Part shown: positions 2,452-32,597 of the stretch, in pieces
How the letters are laid out: each line of letters starts with the position of its first letter
Position numbering within the stretch: the first letter of the stretch is position 1
IMG/VR virus record: IMGVR_UViG_3300036804_000056
Location: 1 to 32,597 of that record
Length of the DNA: 32,597 nt
Reading direction: 5' to 3' (one strand)
Origin: a virus
Notes under the pieces: model-generated
What the model was told of the DNA's origin: nothing
The model's input: the letters and a program-made list of their open reading frames with translations, nothing else
Databases searched by the model: none
Position numbers and translations under genes: made by a program

Positions 2452-2718
2452 ATGGACAACGAGGAGTTGAAAACGCGGCTCGACGATATTTTGCAGCGAA
2501 TGCAAGCGATTGAGGCTGGCTTGCAACAGATGCGTGACGCCGAAATGCAGCGCGCCGAGCGCCGGGCGCAGCGCGCCGCTCAAATTCTCGACCTTGCCAT
2601 TGAGCATGAGATCACGCCAGAAACCGTGCTTCAAGGCTACCTCGCCGGCCGTTGGAAGCGCCGGCGCGGCGACATTTATCCGCCAGCGAGGGACGTGCGG
2701 AATGGCCAGAACGCCTAG
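2452..2718 (+). CDS. Putative small terminase subunit (88 aa)
   Basis: ATG 2452 lies 5 bases after GGAGGG (2441-2446); a GTG one codon upstream is too close to that site. Residues 1-50 form a strong coiled coil (ELKTRLDDILQRMQAIEAGL and following heptads), and the C-terminal end is basic (GRWKRRRGD). Position directly upstream of TerL, small size, coiled coil and basic tail fit a small terminase that recognises DNA and regulates TerL, but no typical N-terminal HTH is visible. It overlaps TerL by 17 bases. Confidence 0.5.
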   Translation: MDNEELKTRLDDILQRMQAIEAGLQQMRDAEMQRAERRAQRAAQILDLAIEHEITPETVLQGYLAGRWKRRRGDIYPPARDVRNGQNA

Positions 2719-4510
2719 CATCCGGCAAGGAATTTACGATCTTCTCAGCGCGGTCGAAATCGACACGAAAGAGGAGGGCCGCGCCCACGTGGACCCGTGG
2801 ATGAGTCAGCGCATGGTCATCGACGCGGTTGCGAAAGGCTTGCAAGAGGGCGTCCACGAATTTGTCGTCTTGAAGTGCCGCCAGGTGGCGATCACGACGG
2901 TTTGCAGCGTGATCGAACTCTTTTGGGCGCTGGCGAATCCTGGCGTGCAAGGCGCGATCATCGCCGACCGGACGGACAACCTCGAGCGCTTGCGGCGCAT
3001 CTTCGCCTCGCTCCTCGAGACGTTGCCGCCCGAGTGGCGCTCGCCCGATCATCGGCTAGTGTCCAACAATCGGACGGGGATGGCGTTCGCGAATCGCAGC
3101 GTGATTGACTTGCTGGCGGCGGCGAGCAATCCCGACTTGGGCGCGAGCCGCGCGCTCAACATGATGCACGCGACGGAGTGCGCACAATGGAAATCACTGG
3201 CGGGTGTCGAGTCGCTGAAAGCGTCGCTTGCGCGCTTAAATCCCACCCGATTGTATGTGTGGGAGTCGATAGCGAACGGATTCAATTGGTACTACAATTT
3301 CTGTCAGCAAGCCAAGCAAGACCGCCACATGCGGTTTATCTTCGTGGGCTTTTGGGCGAATCCGACCTATTCGATTCCGCGATCCGACCCGGACTACAAA
3401 GTTTATTGGGACGGGACGCTGCAAGACGAAGAAATCAAGCGAGCGCGCTTCGTCAAGCAGAACTACGGCGTCACCGTGACGCCCACGCAAATCGCATGGT
3501 GGCGACGCGAAAGCGAATTTCGCGCCCCCGAGTACATGGATAGGCATTTCCCGTGGACAGAGCGCGAATGCTTCATAGCCTCGGGGTCATCGTTCTTTCC
3601 GGCGGGACGGACGCTCGAGATCAACGAGAGCCTGACGGATGGACCGCTCTACAAGGGTTACAAGTACACTTTCGAGGAACAGTTTCTCGGCTCGAGGATA
3701 GTCCCGACGCAGGACCGGGACTCCGTGATGCTCCGCGTGTGGGAGCCGCCGGAGATCGGCCCAAACGCCGTGTACGTCATCGGCGGCGATCCGTCGGGGG
3801 GCGGCGGGGGCGAAGCTAACGATCACGCAATCAGCGTGTGGCGGTGCTACGCCGACCGGCTTGTCCAATGCGCCGAGTTCGCATCCAACAAGCCGCTCAC
3901 CTATCAGTTCTCATGGGTGCTCGCGCACCTCGCCGGATGCTACCGCGATCATCTCGCCAACATTGAGGTGAGCGGTGTGGGCGCGGCCGTGCTGCCCGAG
4001 GTGCGCAACCTCCGCCAGCTTGCCGAGCGCGGAATCCTTCAAGCCGACAATGACGCCGACAAGATCCTCGACATGATCGGGGCGGTGCGGTGGTTCCTCT
4101 ACAAGCGGGCCGACACGCTCGGCGGCGGCGGCAACGTGGTCGCCTGGAAAACGAACCAAGACAACAAGCATCAAGTCTACAGCGAGTTCCGCGATTCGAT
4201 GATGCTTCGTCGTGTTGAGATTCGATCCGTGCGCCTCATTCAGCAAATCCAAGCTATCGTCGAGGACGAAGGATGGATAGGCGCGGGGCCTGACACGGGC
4301 GAAAACGACGATCTCGTCTCGGCGGCGGTGCTCGCGCATCACACATGGGTTGAATGGCGGCGCAACGGTCTTGTGGCGCGCAACTTGACGTGGGACTCGG
4401 TCAAGGGGCAACGTCCGCCGCCGAATCCGGCGACCGTGCTTTCGTTCGCCTTCTCAGAGCACATTCGGAAGATCAATCAGAAGGCCAACACTCAGCGGCA
4501 GAGGTTTTGA
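2702..4510 (+). CDS. terL: Terminase large subunit
   Basis: A 602-residue packaging motor and nuclease that cuts concatemers and drives DNA into the procapsid. The ATPase part shows a Walker A-type segment at about 57-66 (LKCRQVAITT), a Walker B-like region ending in Glu near 159 (MMHATEC) and a coupling motif near 187-193 (WESIANG). The RNase H-like nuclease part shows Asp363 (GGDPSGGG), Glu422 (NIEVSGVG) and Asp537 (GENDDLVSA). The usual Walker A glycine is Ala here. ATG 2702 is the first start compatible with the upstream overlap. Length is normal for the family. Confidence 0.92.
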   Translation: MARTPSIRQGIYDLLSAVEIDTKEEGRAHVDPWMSQRMVIDAVAKGLQEGVHEFVVLKCRQVAITTVCSVIELFWALANPGVQGAIIADRTDNLERLRRIFASLLETLPPEWRSPDHRLVSNNRTGMAFANRSVIDLLAAASNPDLGASRALNMMHATECAQWKSLAGVESLKASLARLNPTRLYVWESIANGFNWYYNFCQQAKQDRHMRFIFVGFWANPTYSIPRSDPDYKVYWDGTLQDEEIKRARFVKQNYGVTVTPTQIAWWRRESEFRAPEYMDRHFPWTERECFIASGSSFFPAGRTLEINESLTDGPLYKGYKYTFEEQFLGSRIVPTQDRDSVMLRVWEPPEIGPNAVYVIGGDPSGGGGGEANDHAISVWRCYADRLVQCAEFASNKPLTYQFSWVLAHLAGCYRDHLANIEVSGVGAAVLPEVRNLRQLAERGILQADNDADKILDMIGAVRWFLYKRADTLGGGGNVVAWKTNQDNKHQVYSEFRDSMMLRRVEIRSVRLIQQIQAIVEDEGWIGAGPDTGENDDLVSAAVLAHHTWVEWRRNGLVARNLTWDSVKGQRPPPNPATVLSFAFSEHIRKINQKANTQRQRF

Positions 4511-5662: not shown

Positions 5663-5823
5663 CGATTCGCGCCTTGCTTTGGATGTTGGCGAGGCTTCGT
5701 TGCCGCTTGGGATGGTGCGGCGGCCATGTCGTGAGCGGGACGCATGACGGCGTGATCTGGATTGGGTGGCAGTGCGACGACTGCGGCATCGTCAAATATT
5801 ACGAGCCCTCCCGATGGCCCTGA
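5656..5823 (+). CDS. Small zinc-ribbon protein (55 aa)
   Basis: ATG 5656 overlaps the previous stop codon, and the gene ends inside the portal gene, so three reading frames are chained here. The product has Cys16, Cys21-Gly-Gly-His24 and a CDDC pair at 40-43, followed by GIVKYYEPSRWP, which reads as a compact zinc-binding module. Its translation may drive portal translation, since the portal ATG at 5814 has no good ribosome binding site. Function unknown. Confidence 0.7.
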   Translation: MVTIRALLWMLARLRCRLGWCGGHVVSGTHDGVIWIGWQCDDCGIVKYYEPSRWP

Positions 5824-7532
5824 AAATTCCCAACAACCGTCAGCATCTCGCTGAGTGGTCCAAAGAATTGATAGATGAATGTATGGGATCGGCTTCCGAG
5901 AGGGGCATGATATACACTAAAGCCGCCCAATATTACTATACTGGTACTTCCGACTCGAAGGCCGCGATCTATAACAAGACGAAGGCGTTTATCGACAAGC
6001 TCGCGGGCTTTCTCATGCAACCGACCGACGTCCGGTTCAACGTCGTGTTCGACTCCGGCGAGCCTGAGAGCGTGCTCGCTCGAGCACAGCTTGTCAGCGA
6101 GAAGCTATCGGCCGACTTCAAGCAAACCGACTCCGACGTCTCATTCGCCGAAACGGTGATTTGGTCGCTCGTCAACGGATGCCACCTCCTCAAGACGCTG
6201 CCCGACGGCGACGGCGGATCGTTCAAGGTCGCGCCCGTCCATCCGCAGAATTTCGGCGTCTTGAGCGAGACGACGCTCGCGCTCGACGAACAAGAGGCGT
6301 TTTGCCACGTCTCGTTTCCGACGCTCACGCAAATGCGCACGATGCTCAAGGATCATCCTCGAGCGAAGGAATGGATGGCGCGGATCGAGGAGGCGCGGCC
6401 GACCGAACGTGACGAGATGGAGCCGACCTATTTCCACTCCATGGTGGTCGGCGGATTGCAGCCGCTTGGCCAGGTCGGCGAGCTTCCGAGCGCGGCAGGC
6501 ATCGTCAATGTGTTCCCGACGCCCGTCCCGTGGAAGCCAAACCACAAGTTCAACCCAACTGTTCGTCTATGCGAGGTGTGGATTCAGGACCGCGACCGTG
6601 GCGACTACACGACGTTGCAAGCGGTCTATGGCGCCGACCCGATCATCATTGAGGGTGAGGAGACGCGGCGCAACCTCTCGCGCGTTCCCGGCAAGTCGCC
6701 GTTCACCAAGGTCCAGAGCCAGCAAACGCCCGGCTATTTTTTCGGCCGCTCAATGATCGCCGACGTCCAGATGTTGCAGGATCTTCTCAACAAGCGCCTT
6801 CGCGACATCGCGATCATGTGGGATAGGAACGTCAACGCTCCGCAACTGTTGAGCGGTTTCACCGGCGTCACCGAGGAGAGCTATTTCAAGCTCCTCAACG
6901 AAGGCGGATTCCTCGCCGACCCCAATCCGAACGCGAAAGCGCAAAAGCTCCTCGAGCCACCGCCCGAGAACTACCTCGAGGAGCTTCAATTCCTGTTTCA
7001 GCTATTCGACGAAGCTTCTGGCTTCTCACCCGTCATGAGCGGTCAGGGGGAGCCTGGCGTGCGGGCCGGCGTCCACGCGCAGACGCTTGTGCGCACGTCA
7101 GGCGGCCGGCTTATCGACCAGGCGGCGCGCATTGAACGCCAGCTTGGCGAAGTCGGTTATCTGGCGCTCAAGGTCATGCAAGCGATGGACGCGCTCGTCT
7201 ACACGACAGACACGGGGACTGATTTCCTCCTCTCGCATCTGCCCGGCAATTTCGCCGTCGAGGTTGACTCGCACTCGGCGAGCCCGGCCTTCGCCGAGGA
7301 CAATCGCCAGGTCGCCATCGCGCTCGCTCGCGCCAACGCCATCGACTCGGAAGATTTGATTCACATGCTCCATCCGCCTGGCGCGCAACTCTTGCTCGCC
7401 CGCCTCCGCGAGCGGAAAAAGGCGCAGGCCAAACAGGCGCAACAGGAGGAGCAGAAAGAGCTTATCGAGGGCGTGTTGGGCTTCCCACAAGGCGGCAGGA
7501 AGGGCGCTGGTGGACGGAAGCCCAAACAGTAG
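5814..7532 (+). CDS. Portal (head-tail connector) protein
   Basis: The 572-residue protein should form the dodecameric ring at the capsid vertex through which DNA is packaged and ejected. The start at ATG 5814 gives MALKIPNNRQ and overlaps the upstream gene by 10 bases. Podovirus portal features seen by eye are an early SKAAIYNKTKAFIDKLAGFL segment, a wing region, a middle GYFFGRSMIADVQMLQDLLN stem-like helix and a C-terminal crown rich in Ala, Gln, Lys and Glu. Gene order (terL, portal, scaffold, coat) supports it. It resembles the head-tail connector family of T7-like/P22-like phages. Confidence 0.85.
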   Translation: MALKIPNNRQHLAEWSKELIDECMGSASERGMIYTKAAQYYYTGTSDSKAAIYNKTKAFIDKLAGFLMQPTDVRFNVVFDSGEPESVLARAQLVSEKLSADFKQTDSDVSFAETVIWSLVNGCHLLKTLPDGDGGSFKVAPVHPQNFGVLSETTLALDEQEAFCHVSFPTLTQMRTMLKDHPRAKEWMARIEEARPTERDEMEPTYFHSMVVGGLQPLGQVGELPSAAGIVNVFPTPVPWKPNHKFNPTVRLCEVWIQDRDRGDYTTLQAVYGADPIIIEGEETRRNLSRVPGKSPFTKVQSQQTPGYFFGRSMIADVQMLQDLLNKRLRDIAIMWDRNVNAPQLLSGFTGVTEESYFKLLNEGGFLADPNPNAKAQKLLEPPPENYLEELQFLFQLFDEASGFSPVMSGQGEPGVRAGVHAQTLVRTSGGRLIDQAARIERQLGEVGYLALKVMQAMDALVYTTDTGTDFLLSHLPGNFAVEVDSHSASPAFAEDNRQVAIALARANAIDSEDLIHMLHPPGAQLLLARLRERKKAQAKQAQQEEQKELIEGVLGFPQGGRKGAGGRKPKQ

Positions 7533-8182: not shown

Positions 8183-8758
8183 ATGAATCGTTTGTTAATC
8201 ACTACCGCCATCTTGGTCCTATCCGTCACGCCTGGCGTGGCGGGGACGATCATCACGACGGATTTCTCAGCCAACGGCTCGGGAATTACGAGCACGCCCG
8301 GCGACGATCTCGCCGTGGCGACTGACGTCAGCGTCGCCGGATGGACTGTCTCGTCAATCCCGATCTCGATTGGCGGCTTGGCCCCTGGCGATCCGGTTGA
8401 CGTCACCAATCCGATCTCGACGGCGCTCGGCTCGAGCATCACCGTATCGTGGGACGCGGGCGCGTTCTCTGACACGCTCAAGACGACGGGCGTGAGCTTC
8501 GTCGGCGACACGCTCGACATCGTGGCGAGCGGCGTTCTCACCGGGCCGGGCGTTCCGACAGTCAACGACGGCGTTCTCGATCTTGCCTTCACTCAGGCGG
8601 GCGGCACGGGCGACGCTATCAGCGGCTCCGGGACGTTTGTTGACTCGACGACTGTTCCCGAGCCGTCAACGTGGGCCATGATGCTTACCGGCTTCGCCTT
8701 GTTGGGGAGCGTGGCATGGCGAAGATCGGCGGGCCGCCGGCCGACGCTATCGGCCTAG
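8183..8758 (+). CDS. PEP-CTERM (PEPxxWA type) surface protein
   Basis: A 191-residue exported protein; AGGAG (8168-8172) lies 10 bases upstream. Residues 1-21 are a Sec signal peptide (MNRLLITTAILVLSVTPGVAG). The body (about 22-155) is Gly/Thr/Ser/Asp-rich with alternating hydrophobics, likely all-beta. The C-terminal end has the full sorting signal: PEPSTWAMMLTGF, a hydrophobic segment, then an Arg-rich tail. In bacteria, exosortase cuts and attaches such proteins, often linked to exopolysaccharide. It sits between portal and scaffold genes like a moron. The host would have to supply the exosortase. Confidence 0.85.
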   Translation: MNRLLITTAILVLSVTPGVAGTIITTDFSANGSGITSTPGDDLAVATDVSVAGWTVSSIPISIGGLAPGDPVDVTNPISTALGSSITVSWDAGAFSDTLKTTGVSFVGDTLDIVASGVLTGPGVPTVNDGVLDLAFTQAGGTGDAISGSGTFVDSTTVPEPSTWAMMLTGFALLGSVAWRRSAGRRPTLSA

Positions 8759-9110: not shown

Positions 9111-9650
9111 ATGCCGCGTGAAATCTCAGATGAGGAATATGCCTTTTTGCAAAACAAAAGGCAGACCGCCGACTTCGTTGAATCGATCTACAACGATCCG
9201 AAGCTCAACAAGGAAGCCAAGCGGCTTATCAAGGCCAAGTACCCGAACCTTTCGATCCCCGATTATGACATCGAGGAGAAGGTCGAGGCGCGGCTCACGA
9301 AGGCCGAGCAAGACAAGCAAAAGGCCGAGAACGAAGCTCGCCAGCGCGCCGAGGATGAAGCCTGGCGCTCGACGCGAACCAAGGTGCAAGCCGACTACGG
9401 CTTCACTGACGACGCCATGGGTGAACTCGAAAAGTTCATGCAAGAGAAAAACATCGGCGATTACGAGGTTGCCGCGAGCTACCGGGCGTCAAAGAACCCG
9501 AAATCGAGCGACCCTACTGACACTTCCCGTTGGCAACACGACAAGCAGCCAGACTTTGCCAAGATAGCAGCAGACCCGGAAGCGTGGGGACGGCAGGAAA
9601 TCTTGACCGCGATTCACCGCGATCAGGAGGCAGCTAGAGGACGCTACTAA
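9111..9650 (+). CDS. Scaffolding protein
   Basis: A 179-residue highly charged protein directly upstream of the coat gene, overlapping it by one base. Residues 55-95 form a coiled coil (AEQDKQKAENEARQRAEDEA), with acidic helical ends and a C-terminal stretch with basic residues (IHRDQEAARGRY). Scaffolding proteins help coat subunits assemble into procapsids and then leave. Size, charge and gene order fit; sequence in this family is poorly conserved. Confidence 0.75.
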   Translation: MPREISDEEYAFLQNKRQTADFVESIYNDPKLNKEAKRLIKAKYPNLSIPDYDIEEKVEARLTKAEQDKQKAENEARQRAEDEAWRSTRTKVQADYGFTDDAMGELEKFMQEKNIGDYEVAASYRASKNPKSSDPTDTSRWQHDKQPDFAKIAADPEAWGRQEILTAIHRDQEAARGRY

Positions 9651-10657
9651 TGCCTATCCTTGGCGCGGGCATCATCCCGAGCGGCCCAATCGGGCTCGAG
9701 CTTCAAGCAACCGTTCGGCGCGTGTTCGCGCAGATGGTCGTTCTCCTCATTTACAAACAGAATCCGCTCCTCGCATTGCTCTTGCGCAATGCGATCCGAG
9801 CGAGCGGCGGCGTCTCGCCGTACACTCAACCCGTGCAAACCGGGCAGTATGTCGAGTCGTCATGGATTGGCCCGGCCGGCCAATTCGACCTGCCGCAAGA
9901 CGTGGCCGCGACCGTCAACGCCGAGTTCAACATGTGCTGTCTGGCGACGCCTGTCTCGAGCTTAGGGCTCGAACAGCTTGTGACGCAGGACGCCATCGCG
10001 GTCGCCTCGAGGTTGATGCTCAAGCTCAACGATCTCAAGAACTCGGCGTTGCAAGCTCTCTCGACAGGCTTGTTCGGCCCGGCCGTCACCAACGTTTTGC
10101 AGATGTACTCGTTGACCGACGCCTACGGGGCGACCGGGACTTACGGCGGGCTCGACCGCGCGACCTATCCCGATTGGGCGGGGCTTGCGGTCGCCGGCGC
10201 TGGCGACGTGCTCACCCGCTCGGCGTTCATCCCCAACATGCTCGCGGCGGTGAAAAACTCAGGCGGCGAGGCGCTCGATTTCGTCGTCATGAGCGTCGAG
10301 GATTGGACTACCCTCCTGACCGATTTCATGAGCGTGGAGCGTTACAACAATGATCCTTCTTCGCGGTGGGGAAAGGACGATCCCGTTAATAGTGGTTTTC
10401 GCGGTTTGCTGCTTGGCGATACTCCACTATTTTTCGACCTGAATTGCCCGCAAGGAACGGCCTACGGCTTCAATTCCAAGTACATCACGCTCGTCATCCA
10501 TGAGGATGCGAACTTCGCATGGACCGGCTGGTACTCGACGATCCCGCAAGGGCAGATCGCCAGCGTCGGGTTGAGCCTCACCGCGCTCAATCTCGTATGC
10601 TCGAAACCGTCCACGGGCGTCATCATCAACGGCATCACCGGAGGCGCTGATATCTGA
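9650..10657 (+). CDS. Major capsid (coat) protein
   Basis: A 335-residue protein right after the scaffold gene, starting at ATG 9650 within the scaffold stop. It has the feel of an HK97-fold coat protein: a long N-terminal helix region, a spine helix around residues 115-150 (LVTQDAIAVASRLMLKLNDL), a central domain with VVMSVEDWTTLL near 205 and a late segment GLLLGDTPLFFDLN and GIINGITGG-like end. No maturation protease gene or cleavage site is apparent, so the N-terminal part may be kept. Identification depends mostly on gene order and length. Confidence 0.8.
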   Translation: MPILGAGIIPSGPIGLELQATVRRVFAQMVVLLIYKQNPLLALLLRNAIRASGGVSPYTQPVQTGQYVESSWIGPAGQFDLPQDVAATVNAEFNMCCLATPVSSLGLEQLVTQDAIAVASRLMLKLNDLKNSALQALSTGLFGPAVTNVLQMYSLTDAYGATGTYGGLDRATYPDWAGLAVAGAGDVLTRSAFIPNMLAAVKNSGGEALDFVVMSVEDWTTLLTDFMSVERYNNDPSSRWGKDDPVNSGFRGLLLGDTPLFFDLNCPQGTAYGFNSKYITLVIHEDANFAWTGWYSTIPQGQIASVGLSLTALNLVCSKPSTGVIINGITGGADI

Positions 10658-23283: not shown

Positions 23284-23656
23284 ACCGAAGCTCGTTTCAA
23301 TCGAGGGCGGCGAGTCGCAGCGCGATCCCCTCGACGTCAACAATCGGCTCTACAAGCAAATCGCCCGGCTCCTCGATCAACTCGAGAAGCAAGACCTTCT
23401 CGACGAAAACGGCGTGACGATTCCGCAGCGGATCAACGCGCTCATCGCCGTTGGCCGAATCCAAATCATGTTCGCCAACTTGAGAAAGGCCCAAAATGTC
23501 GAGTCAGGAGCCACAGGGAGCGCCGTCCGCAAGTACGCCTCCGCGTTCTCGCGCGCCAATGCAACTCGTCGGGGAGCGATCAATACCAGAGCCGATGACT
23601 CTTTCGCAGATGGTTTCGGGGGCGACGACGGCGGCGACGGCGACGACGCAGCCTAA
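23273..23656 (+). CDS. Virion-block protein of unknown function (127 aa)
   Basis: TTG 23273 lies 7 bases after GGAG (23262-23265), inside the end of the previous gene. The body is helical (NNRLYKQIARLLDQLEKQDLL; IPQRINALIAVGRIQIMFANL), with an acidic Gly/Asp tail. The last 161 bases overlap the next gene in a different frame. It may be a small terminase-like or assembly protein; none is certain. Start codon choice rests on the ribosome binding site. Confidence 0.6.
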   Translation: MASKPKLVSIEGGESQRDPLDVNNRLYKQIARLLDQLEKQDLLDENGVTIPQRINALIAVGRIQIMFANLRKAQNVESGATGSAVRKYASAFSRANATRRGAINTRADDSFADGFGGDDGGDGDDAA

Positions 23657-23897
23657 GCCTGTTTCACGTGAAACAGAGTACGTTCACCGGGCGGCGTGGA
23701 AGGCCGGAGTGCTAGGAGCGTTCAACGTCCTCGCGATCATCCTCGCGATCCGGTTCACGCTCCTCGTCGCGGTCATCGGCGCGATCACGCTCACGGTCAT
23801 CGCGATCCGCGAACCGGACCCTTGGCGTTTGGGGGCGCTGGCGATCTACTCGCTTATTGTGGTTTTGCCGACCGTCTGGCTTGCTTCCAGAAAATGA
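23496..23897 (+). CDS. Membrane protein, possible holin (133 aa)
   Basis: ATG 23496 follows a GAGAAAGG site. Residues 1-65 are polar and Pro/Ser/Thr-rich; then come hydrophobic segments at about 70-104 (AGVLGAFNVLAIILAIRFTL and the following stretch) and 112-130 (LGALAIYSLIVVLPTVWLA), ending SRK. The topology would fit a holin or envelope protein. The segment PVSRETE is encoded by a perfect parS palindrome. It is the last rightward virion gene; the next gene converges from the right with 2 bases between. Confidence 0.65.
   Translation: MSSQEPQGAPSASTPPRSRAPMQLVGERSIPEPMTLSQMVSGATTAATATTQPKPVSRETEYVHRAAWKAGVLGAFNVLAIILAIRFTLLVAVIGAITLTVIAIREPDPWRLGALAIYSLIVVLPTVWLASRK
23660..23675. promoter_or_regulatory. 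parS: Perfect parS (ParB-binding) site
   Basis: TGTTTCACGTGAAACA at 23660-23675 is identical to the consensus chromosomal parS, a 16-bp palindrome bound by ParB, which then slides as a CTP clamp. It lies within the membrane-protein gene. No parA or parB gene is visible in the window, so host ParB would be the binder. By composition, a perfect match in 33 kb by chance is very unlikely. Confidence 0.9.
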
Positions 23898-24905: not shown

Positions 24906-25153
24906 CGTTCGCCTTTCATCGCTGCGCGGATCGCGGATATTGCGCCAAGCTCAAGCCCGTTGACGAAGCTCTCAATCGTCTCCGGTGTGGTATCGACCTG
25001 CGTCCGATGCGCGAGCGCGTAGGCGTAGCAGGCGTCGCGCAGAGACGGCGGACGCTTGGCGCTCGCCGCCTCCGGCCCGGTGCGCAGCATGGCGTCGCGC
25101 AGCCGGAACCATGTCTGCAAAACCTCGTTTTCGTCGTCATAGACAGCCTTCAT
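24902..25153 (-). CDS. Small helical protein (83 aa)
   Basis: ATG 25153 is chosen because it overlaps the preceding stop (ATGA) and gives a compact helical product starting MKAVYDDENEVLQTWFRL. Two more helices follow (LRDACYAYALAHRTQ; TIESFVNGLELGAISAIRAA). It reads as ordinary coding sequence. Role unknown. Confidence 0.6.
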   Translation of the reverse strand: MKAVYDDENEVLQTWFRLRDAMLRTGPEAASAKRPPSLRDACYAYALAHRTQVDTTPETIESFVNGLELGAISAIRAAMKGER

Positions 25154-32470: not shown

Positions 32471-32597
32471 TGTTCTCTACTCCTTCGTCTCTGTCTTGCT
32501 TGTCCGTTTGCGTGCTTAACATAGCATGGTGCTTCCATGTGTCAAGTAGGCGAGCGAACGCTCCCCAATCCATTCCGGGGTTGTCGCGGGTGACTGA
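32471..32597. repeat. Right copy of 127-bp terminal inverted repeat
   Basis: Exact reverse complement of 1-127. It carries the promoter and the ribosome binding site of the leftward early block. If the two ends were joined directly they would form a 254-bp perfect palindrome centred on TGACTGATCAGTCA. Confidence 0.97.
32518..32545 (-). promoter_or_regulatory. Sigma70-like promoter inside the right inverted repeat
   Basis: Mirror of the left-end promoter: on the minus strand TTGACA (32545-32540) and TATGTT (32523-32518), 16 bases apart. It points left into the block 32469-30951. Confidence 0.75.

Follow-up and report, generated by a model that had tools for sequence, protein, structure and literature searches.

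With CTP, ParB loads at parS and from there slides along the DNA, after which ParA moves the DNA that carries parS. Extrachromosomal prophages, such as P1 and those of mycobacteria, have their own ParABS systems (PMC7157519), and SGI1 carries 'stolen' parS sites that hijack the ParABS of IncC plasmids (PMC10954446). For phage phi29, the summary of Meijer 2005 given in PMC9437464 states that Spo0A halts lysis and that Spo0J (ParB) entraps the phage chromosome in the spore. Scanning the phi29 genome sequence, we found four copies of the near-parS sequence TGTTTCACGTGGAACA, and a search of the same genome for ParB_N gave no match. Since phi29 is reported to use Spo0J, the use of host ParB by a phage is not new in principle. 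Searches of open-licence papers found no survey of this site in phages without ParB.

Here we describe a viral sequence of 32,597 bases (IMG/VR record IMGVR_UViG_3300036804_000056), the whole of which we call the window. At 23660-23675 it contains TGTTTCACGTGAAACA, an exact match to the 16-bp consensus for chromosomal-type parS as used in PMC10197239. There is no second match in the window, even when up to three mismatches are permitted; the chance expectation at that tolerance is 0.09 per window, and an exact match is far rarer. The palindrome lies within an open reading frame, g31, in which the codons CCT GTT TCA CGT GAA ACA GAG encode P V S R E T E. Both the perfect consensus site and its placement in a phage gene coding PVSRETE had been proposed in an initial annotation made from the sequence, and both are borne out. 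The g31 protein has no match in PHROG or Pfam. The features on which the analysis draws are as follows.

2693..4510, + strand: terminase large subunit, included in the family tree (PHROG match to terminase weak at E 0.0079; homologues annotated as terminase in two Manatee Spring phages; 71-97% conserved in parS-bearing relatives)
5766..7532, + strand: probable portal or head-tail connector (a guess based on its size and position, the PHROG/Pfam search being without match; 66-96% conserved in relatives)
9650..10657, + strand: major capsid protein (PHROG 9953, E 7.7e-20; 36% identical to the proteins annotated as capsid in two environmental phages)
23496..23897, + strand: g31, a 133-aa protein whose variable T/P/S-rich linker holds the site as VSRET (ORF; family alignment)
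23660..23675, no strand assigned: predicted parS-type ParB loading site, a perfect 16-bp palindrome (exact match; kept in related phages above every control palindrome)

Other genes of the window encode a tail lysozyme, ERF and YqaJ recombination proteins and an endolysin. Positions 8183-8758 encode a secreted protein bearing a PEPxxWA-CTERM sorting signal, an unusual feature in a phage and a hint at an exosortase-bearing host. The two ends of the window, 1-127 and 32471-32597, form an exact inverted terminal repeat of 127 bp, pieces of which are absent from the relatives. A length of 127 is common for assembler k-mers. The repeat very likely arose during assembly, and the record is therefore probably incomplete. 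At 32.6 kb it is ~8-10 kb shorter than its longest relatives, which reach 40-43 kb. No close DNA relatives were found among phage records; outside the IMG/VR contigs, the only relatives recovered were two remote environmental phages, with no isolate of the group.

Through the g31 protein we identified 38 related viral contigs in IMG/VR, 11 of them by sequence and the rest by profile. Sites were counted by scanning whole records, then again on fetched sequence, in the set of 39 formed by the window and these relatives (G numbers). The exact palindrome is present in seven records (the window, G005, G028, G033, G034, G036 and G037). Copies with one mismatch in G001, G004, G014, G022, G025 and G027 bring the number to 13, and copies with two mismatches in G019 and G024 bring it to 15. 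At this tolerance, no genome among the 39 has more than one site. As controls we used 400 composition-matched palindromes made by shuffling the parS half-site. At up to one mismatch these occur in a mean of 0.0025 genomes (maximum 1, compared to 13 for parS), and at up to two mismatches in a mean of 0.12 (maximum 2, compared to 15). When all perfect 14-bp palindromes of the set are ranked, the commonest is GTTTCACGTGAAAC, found in 10 genomes, with a runner-up in 3. Conservation of the palindrome is beyond chance.

The remaining 24 of the 39 records have no site at up to two mismatches. Some of these are perhaps fragments. One whole subclade lacks the site throughout, from which we conclude that the site is dispensable in parts of the group and that the trait is variable. 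The copies in G004, which by eye lies inside a VRR-NUC-like ORF, and in G019, with its two mismatches, may be chance matches. In G021 only half of the site is left (three mismatches) with SRET kept, which looks like the decay of a former site.

Seven phages hold the site at the same codons of g31, in a part of the protein that varies in length and sequence across the family alignment. In pairwise comparisons of positions that share an amino acid, the codon itself also matches in 87 of 93 cases at the five site codons, as opposed to 155 of 300 cases at nearby codons. The six exceptions at the site trace to a single phage, which has ACG in place of ACA. Most of these codons are rare in the window genome (usage fractions GTT 0.16, TCA 0.07, CGT 0.06, ACA 0.08), and the product of the usage fractions is 1.8e-6. 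In G014 and G022 the amino acid has changed, giving VSHET and VPRET, yet 15 of the 16 bases are retained. Taken together, the control palindromes, codon usage and codon conservation indicate that a parS-type site is selected at the level of DNA.

In other members of the group the site is found in other ORFs. G025 and G027 carry it in one that follows the capsid gene, G033 and G024 in a long one between g23 and g31, and G036 and G037 between g20 and g23. In a tree of six structural proteins, G034, with its site in g31, is sister to G027, with its site after the capsid gene and no trace of it in g31. Except for the weakest ones, all sites are located in the region of the head and tail genes or their neighbours. 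That one site is kept while its place shifts is expected of a DNA signal but not of a protein motif. The initial annotation had proposed looking in related phages for the site at the same or other positions and asking whether it survives amino acid change; it does both, at the g31 codons and in other genes, and in spite of the substitutions in G014 and G022. Loss of the palindrome from a protein that is kept, named there as evidence against the idea, is seen in part: 32 of the 39 records have the g31 gene without the palindrome, but eight of these have a site elsewhere (at up to two mismatches, and two of the eight may be chance).

Domain searches of the group gave no evidence of partition proteins. 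ParB_N (PF02195) had no match in any of the 39 records, several of which are 40-43 kb, and control genomes were matched; the ParA-type domain AAA_31 (PF13614) had no match in 38 records, and a tyrosine integrase domain had none in 39. The absence of partition genes, claimed earlier for the window, holds for detectable ParB_N and AAA_31 domains, and rests mainly on the relatives because the window looks incomplete.

On the host side, the best match of the phage lysin among genome contigs is from Rhodoblastus (58%), and this match and the PEPxxWA-CTERM gene are weak hints of an alphaproteobacterial host. The Rhodoblastus genome has TGTTTCACGTGAAACA exactly once, with two near copies on the same contig. 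As we interpret the ORFs, rho and mnmE flank the exact copy, and one of the near copies adjoins parA and rsmG. Surroundings of the parA/rsmG and rho/mnmE type are the usual origin-proximal setting of chromosomal parS. Across the family of Rhodoblastus, 40 of 60 genomes contain the exact sequence in one to three copies each. Given that Rhodoblastus and its family carry the same sequence, the phage site is identical to a parS of working chromosomal type, in agreement with its earlier description as a bacterial chromosomal parS. A search of genome contigs with the capsid protein gave no match, and among 397 genomes from the order of Rhodoblastus it gave only matches of 26-29% identity, so these searches provide neither a prophage relative nor a firm host. 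An idea taken from a paper on alphaproteobacterial 'lytic deferment' led us to look for CtrA sites (TTAA-N7-TTAA), of which there were none in six genomes.

The same 16-mer is widespread in viral sequence. It occurs exactly in at least 120 stretches of IMG/VR viral contigs, compared to 1 and 4 stretches for the control palindromes TGTTTGACGTCAAACA and TGTTACACGTGTAACA, and is therefore at least 30 to 120 times commoner than these controls. The rarity of TGTTACACGTGTAACA rules against a generic CACGTG palindrome. Proportions within the parS-bearing stretches are indicative only, as the sample covers the matches listed and includes many short contigs. Among the listed stretches, about half of the sites are intergenic. 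The other half lie within ORFs, where VSRET in a proline/threonine-rich stretch is a frequent reading. Clustering of the proteins from 120 stretches among the matches listed, with only representatives of the main clusters compared to PHROGs, placed 64 in clusters of phage structural, packaging or associated genes (terminase, portal and phi29-type polymerase included). Within the same 120, 41 form one group sharing a terminase of ~490 aa and a portal of ~770 aa, and six fall in a phi29-like polymerase group. ParB_N is absent from 48 of the first 50 parS-bearing records among the matches listed and matched in two. We reject the explanation that these contigs are mainly fragments of bacterial origins, on the basis of the 48 records without ParB_N and the 64 stretches with phage-gene clusters.

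The terminase/portal group (41 loci among L007-L121, for example L103:7120-8589 and L049:6773-9091) makes up a third of the listed parS stretches and is a second candidate for host ParB use. L009, L010, L051, L071, L094 and L096 share a phi29-like polymerase and related genes and have exact parS, in some cases read as MFHVKH or MFHVKQ within an ORF or at its start. Isolates are also represented. Arthrobacter phage Joann (L287) has one exact and one 1-mismatch parS (36613-36628 and 25115-25130), with DNA polymerase I on one side of the exact site and a PurA-like gene on the other; a ParB_N search of this phage gave no match. More than a dozen records of Joann relatives in the phage collection share parS. 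Arthrobacter phage Atuin (L285, locus 2484 and 3008), with a genome of 194 kb, has parS at several places and no ParB_N match. Separately, IMGVR_UViG_3300037423_000235 (L280 and L283) contains many copies of the control palindrome TGTTACACGTGTAACA, which may be the binding site of another protein.

We are highly confident, from the comparisons above, in the prediction that the palindrome is a selected site for host ParB. Because relatives often keep exactly one copy, and none has detectable partition proteins, host ParB is very probably borrowed by the virus. Our preferred reading, to which we give slightly better than even odds, is that ParB would load at this site and let host ParA/ParB position and share out the phage genome; here we infer ParB binding, the host group and the benefit to the phage. 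Under this scheme, phage DNA would enter the cell and host ParB-CTP clamps would load at the single parS, then slide onto the rest of the phage genome. The ParB-coated genome would resemble a host origin, and host ParA/ParB, possibly with SMC, could position and share it out during delayed lysis, in the manner reported for phi29 and Spo0J. Taken by itself, the use of the site for partition or positioning of phage DNA is evenly balanced in our judgement. Arguing against the host-ParB reading, a dormant or plasmid-like state is not known for these phages. The initial suggestion of a hijacked partition site is supported in part: the site is real, selected as DNA, equal to the parS of plausible hosts and kept in relatives without detectable ParA/ParB, whereas binding by host ParB is a prediction and partition, positioning and titration are candidate uses.

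Alternatively, the site could be a decoy, with multiplying phage copies drawing ParB off the few chromosomal sites and stalling host origin segregation and division. The sequence evidence is identical for this case, and the plausible host family has only one to three exact chromosomal sites where it has any, which a replicating phage could outnumber. Counter to this, the genomes keep one site, which suffices for partition or positioning, whereas a decoy would work better with more of them; the precedent of phi29, with four sites, also points to inheritance. We consequently favor partition or positioning and regard a decoy as unlikely. ParB at the site might instead have another local role, in DNA compaction, SMC recruitment, nuclease shielding or the regulation of late genes by spreading. 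Papers on ParB spreading and condensation describe ParB spreading kilobases from one site and condensing DNA, and the position of all but the weakest sites near head and tail genes is consistent with such a role. However, the site moves among different genes, making local gene regulation unlikely, although compaction may still apply; we consider a local role improbable overall.

A phage-encoded reader, ParB-like or otherwise, whose gene is unseen or too divergent, could be invoked given that the window falls short of the length of its longest relatives and that its terminal repeat is probably an artefact. Arguing against it are the ParB_N searches, which covered several records of 40-43 kb, and the exact identity of the sequence to the host consensus, found also in phages of very different GC; we give this explanation very little weight. 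Equally little weight attaches to coincidence, or to selection on the VSRET peptide instead of the DNA. Of the copies that lie in ORFs, most use the VSRET frame, and G021 keeps SRET with half of the palindrome lost. But one of the palindrome's three frames contains a stop codon, leaving two, so that a shared frame is unsurprising, and the site codons are kept as a block, the bases outlast the amino acids in G014 and G022, and the site lies between genes in other phage groups. The codon test (87/93 versus 155/300) leads us to reject VSRET as a protein motif, and the rarity of the control palindromes speaks against coincidence.

Beyond the window group, parS without ParB may be a general strategy, evolved many times in unrelated phages, mostly of non-sporulating bacteria, as a means to hitch-hike on host segregation, with sites often in fast-evolving, low-complexity linkers where a 16-bp signal costs least. 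We put this forward tentatively, at somewhat less than an even chance. If ParB binds these sites, phages would commonly target chromosome segregation, and systems such as Arthrobacter phage Joann would offer a direct test of whether phages are inherited through cell division in the absence of lysogeny.

Compared to the systems described previously, the window group shares with P1 and the mycobacterial prophages the partition of phage DNA through ParB at parS that we propose. These prophages encode their own ParA/ParB and matching sites, whereas domain searches of the window group found no such ParA and ParB genes near parS or elsewhere. SGI1 is similar in that an element with centromere sites alone exploits the ParAB of another replicon for its own stability. 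It differs as an integrative mobilizable element that relies on a plasmid system, while the window phage would use that of the chromosome. The combination of a parS matching that of plausible hosts and no detectable ParB of its own, which is that of phi29, is present in the window group. phi29 is a 19-kb, protein-primed phage of a sporulating Gram-positive host and has several sites, in contrast to the one site, 33-43 kb genomes, terminase and probably non-sporulating alphaproteobacterial host of the window group. The latter also falls outside Salasmaviridae, which have a protein-primed DNA polymerase and a genome of ~19 kb, given its records of up to 43 kb, its terminase and ERF/YqaJ genes, and the VapE-type genes of relatives. 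The use of ParB reported for phi29 was tied to sporulation; in the uncultured group described here, a parS recurs at one per genome and is mobile in position, and the exact site exceeds control palindromes at least 30-fold in viral contigs.
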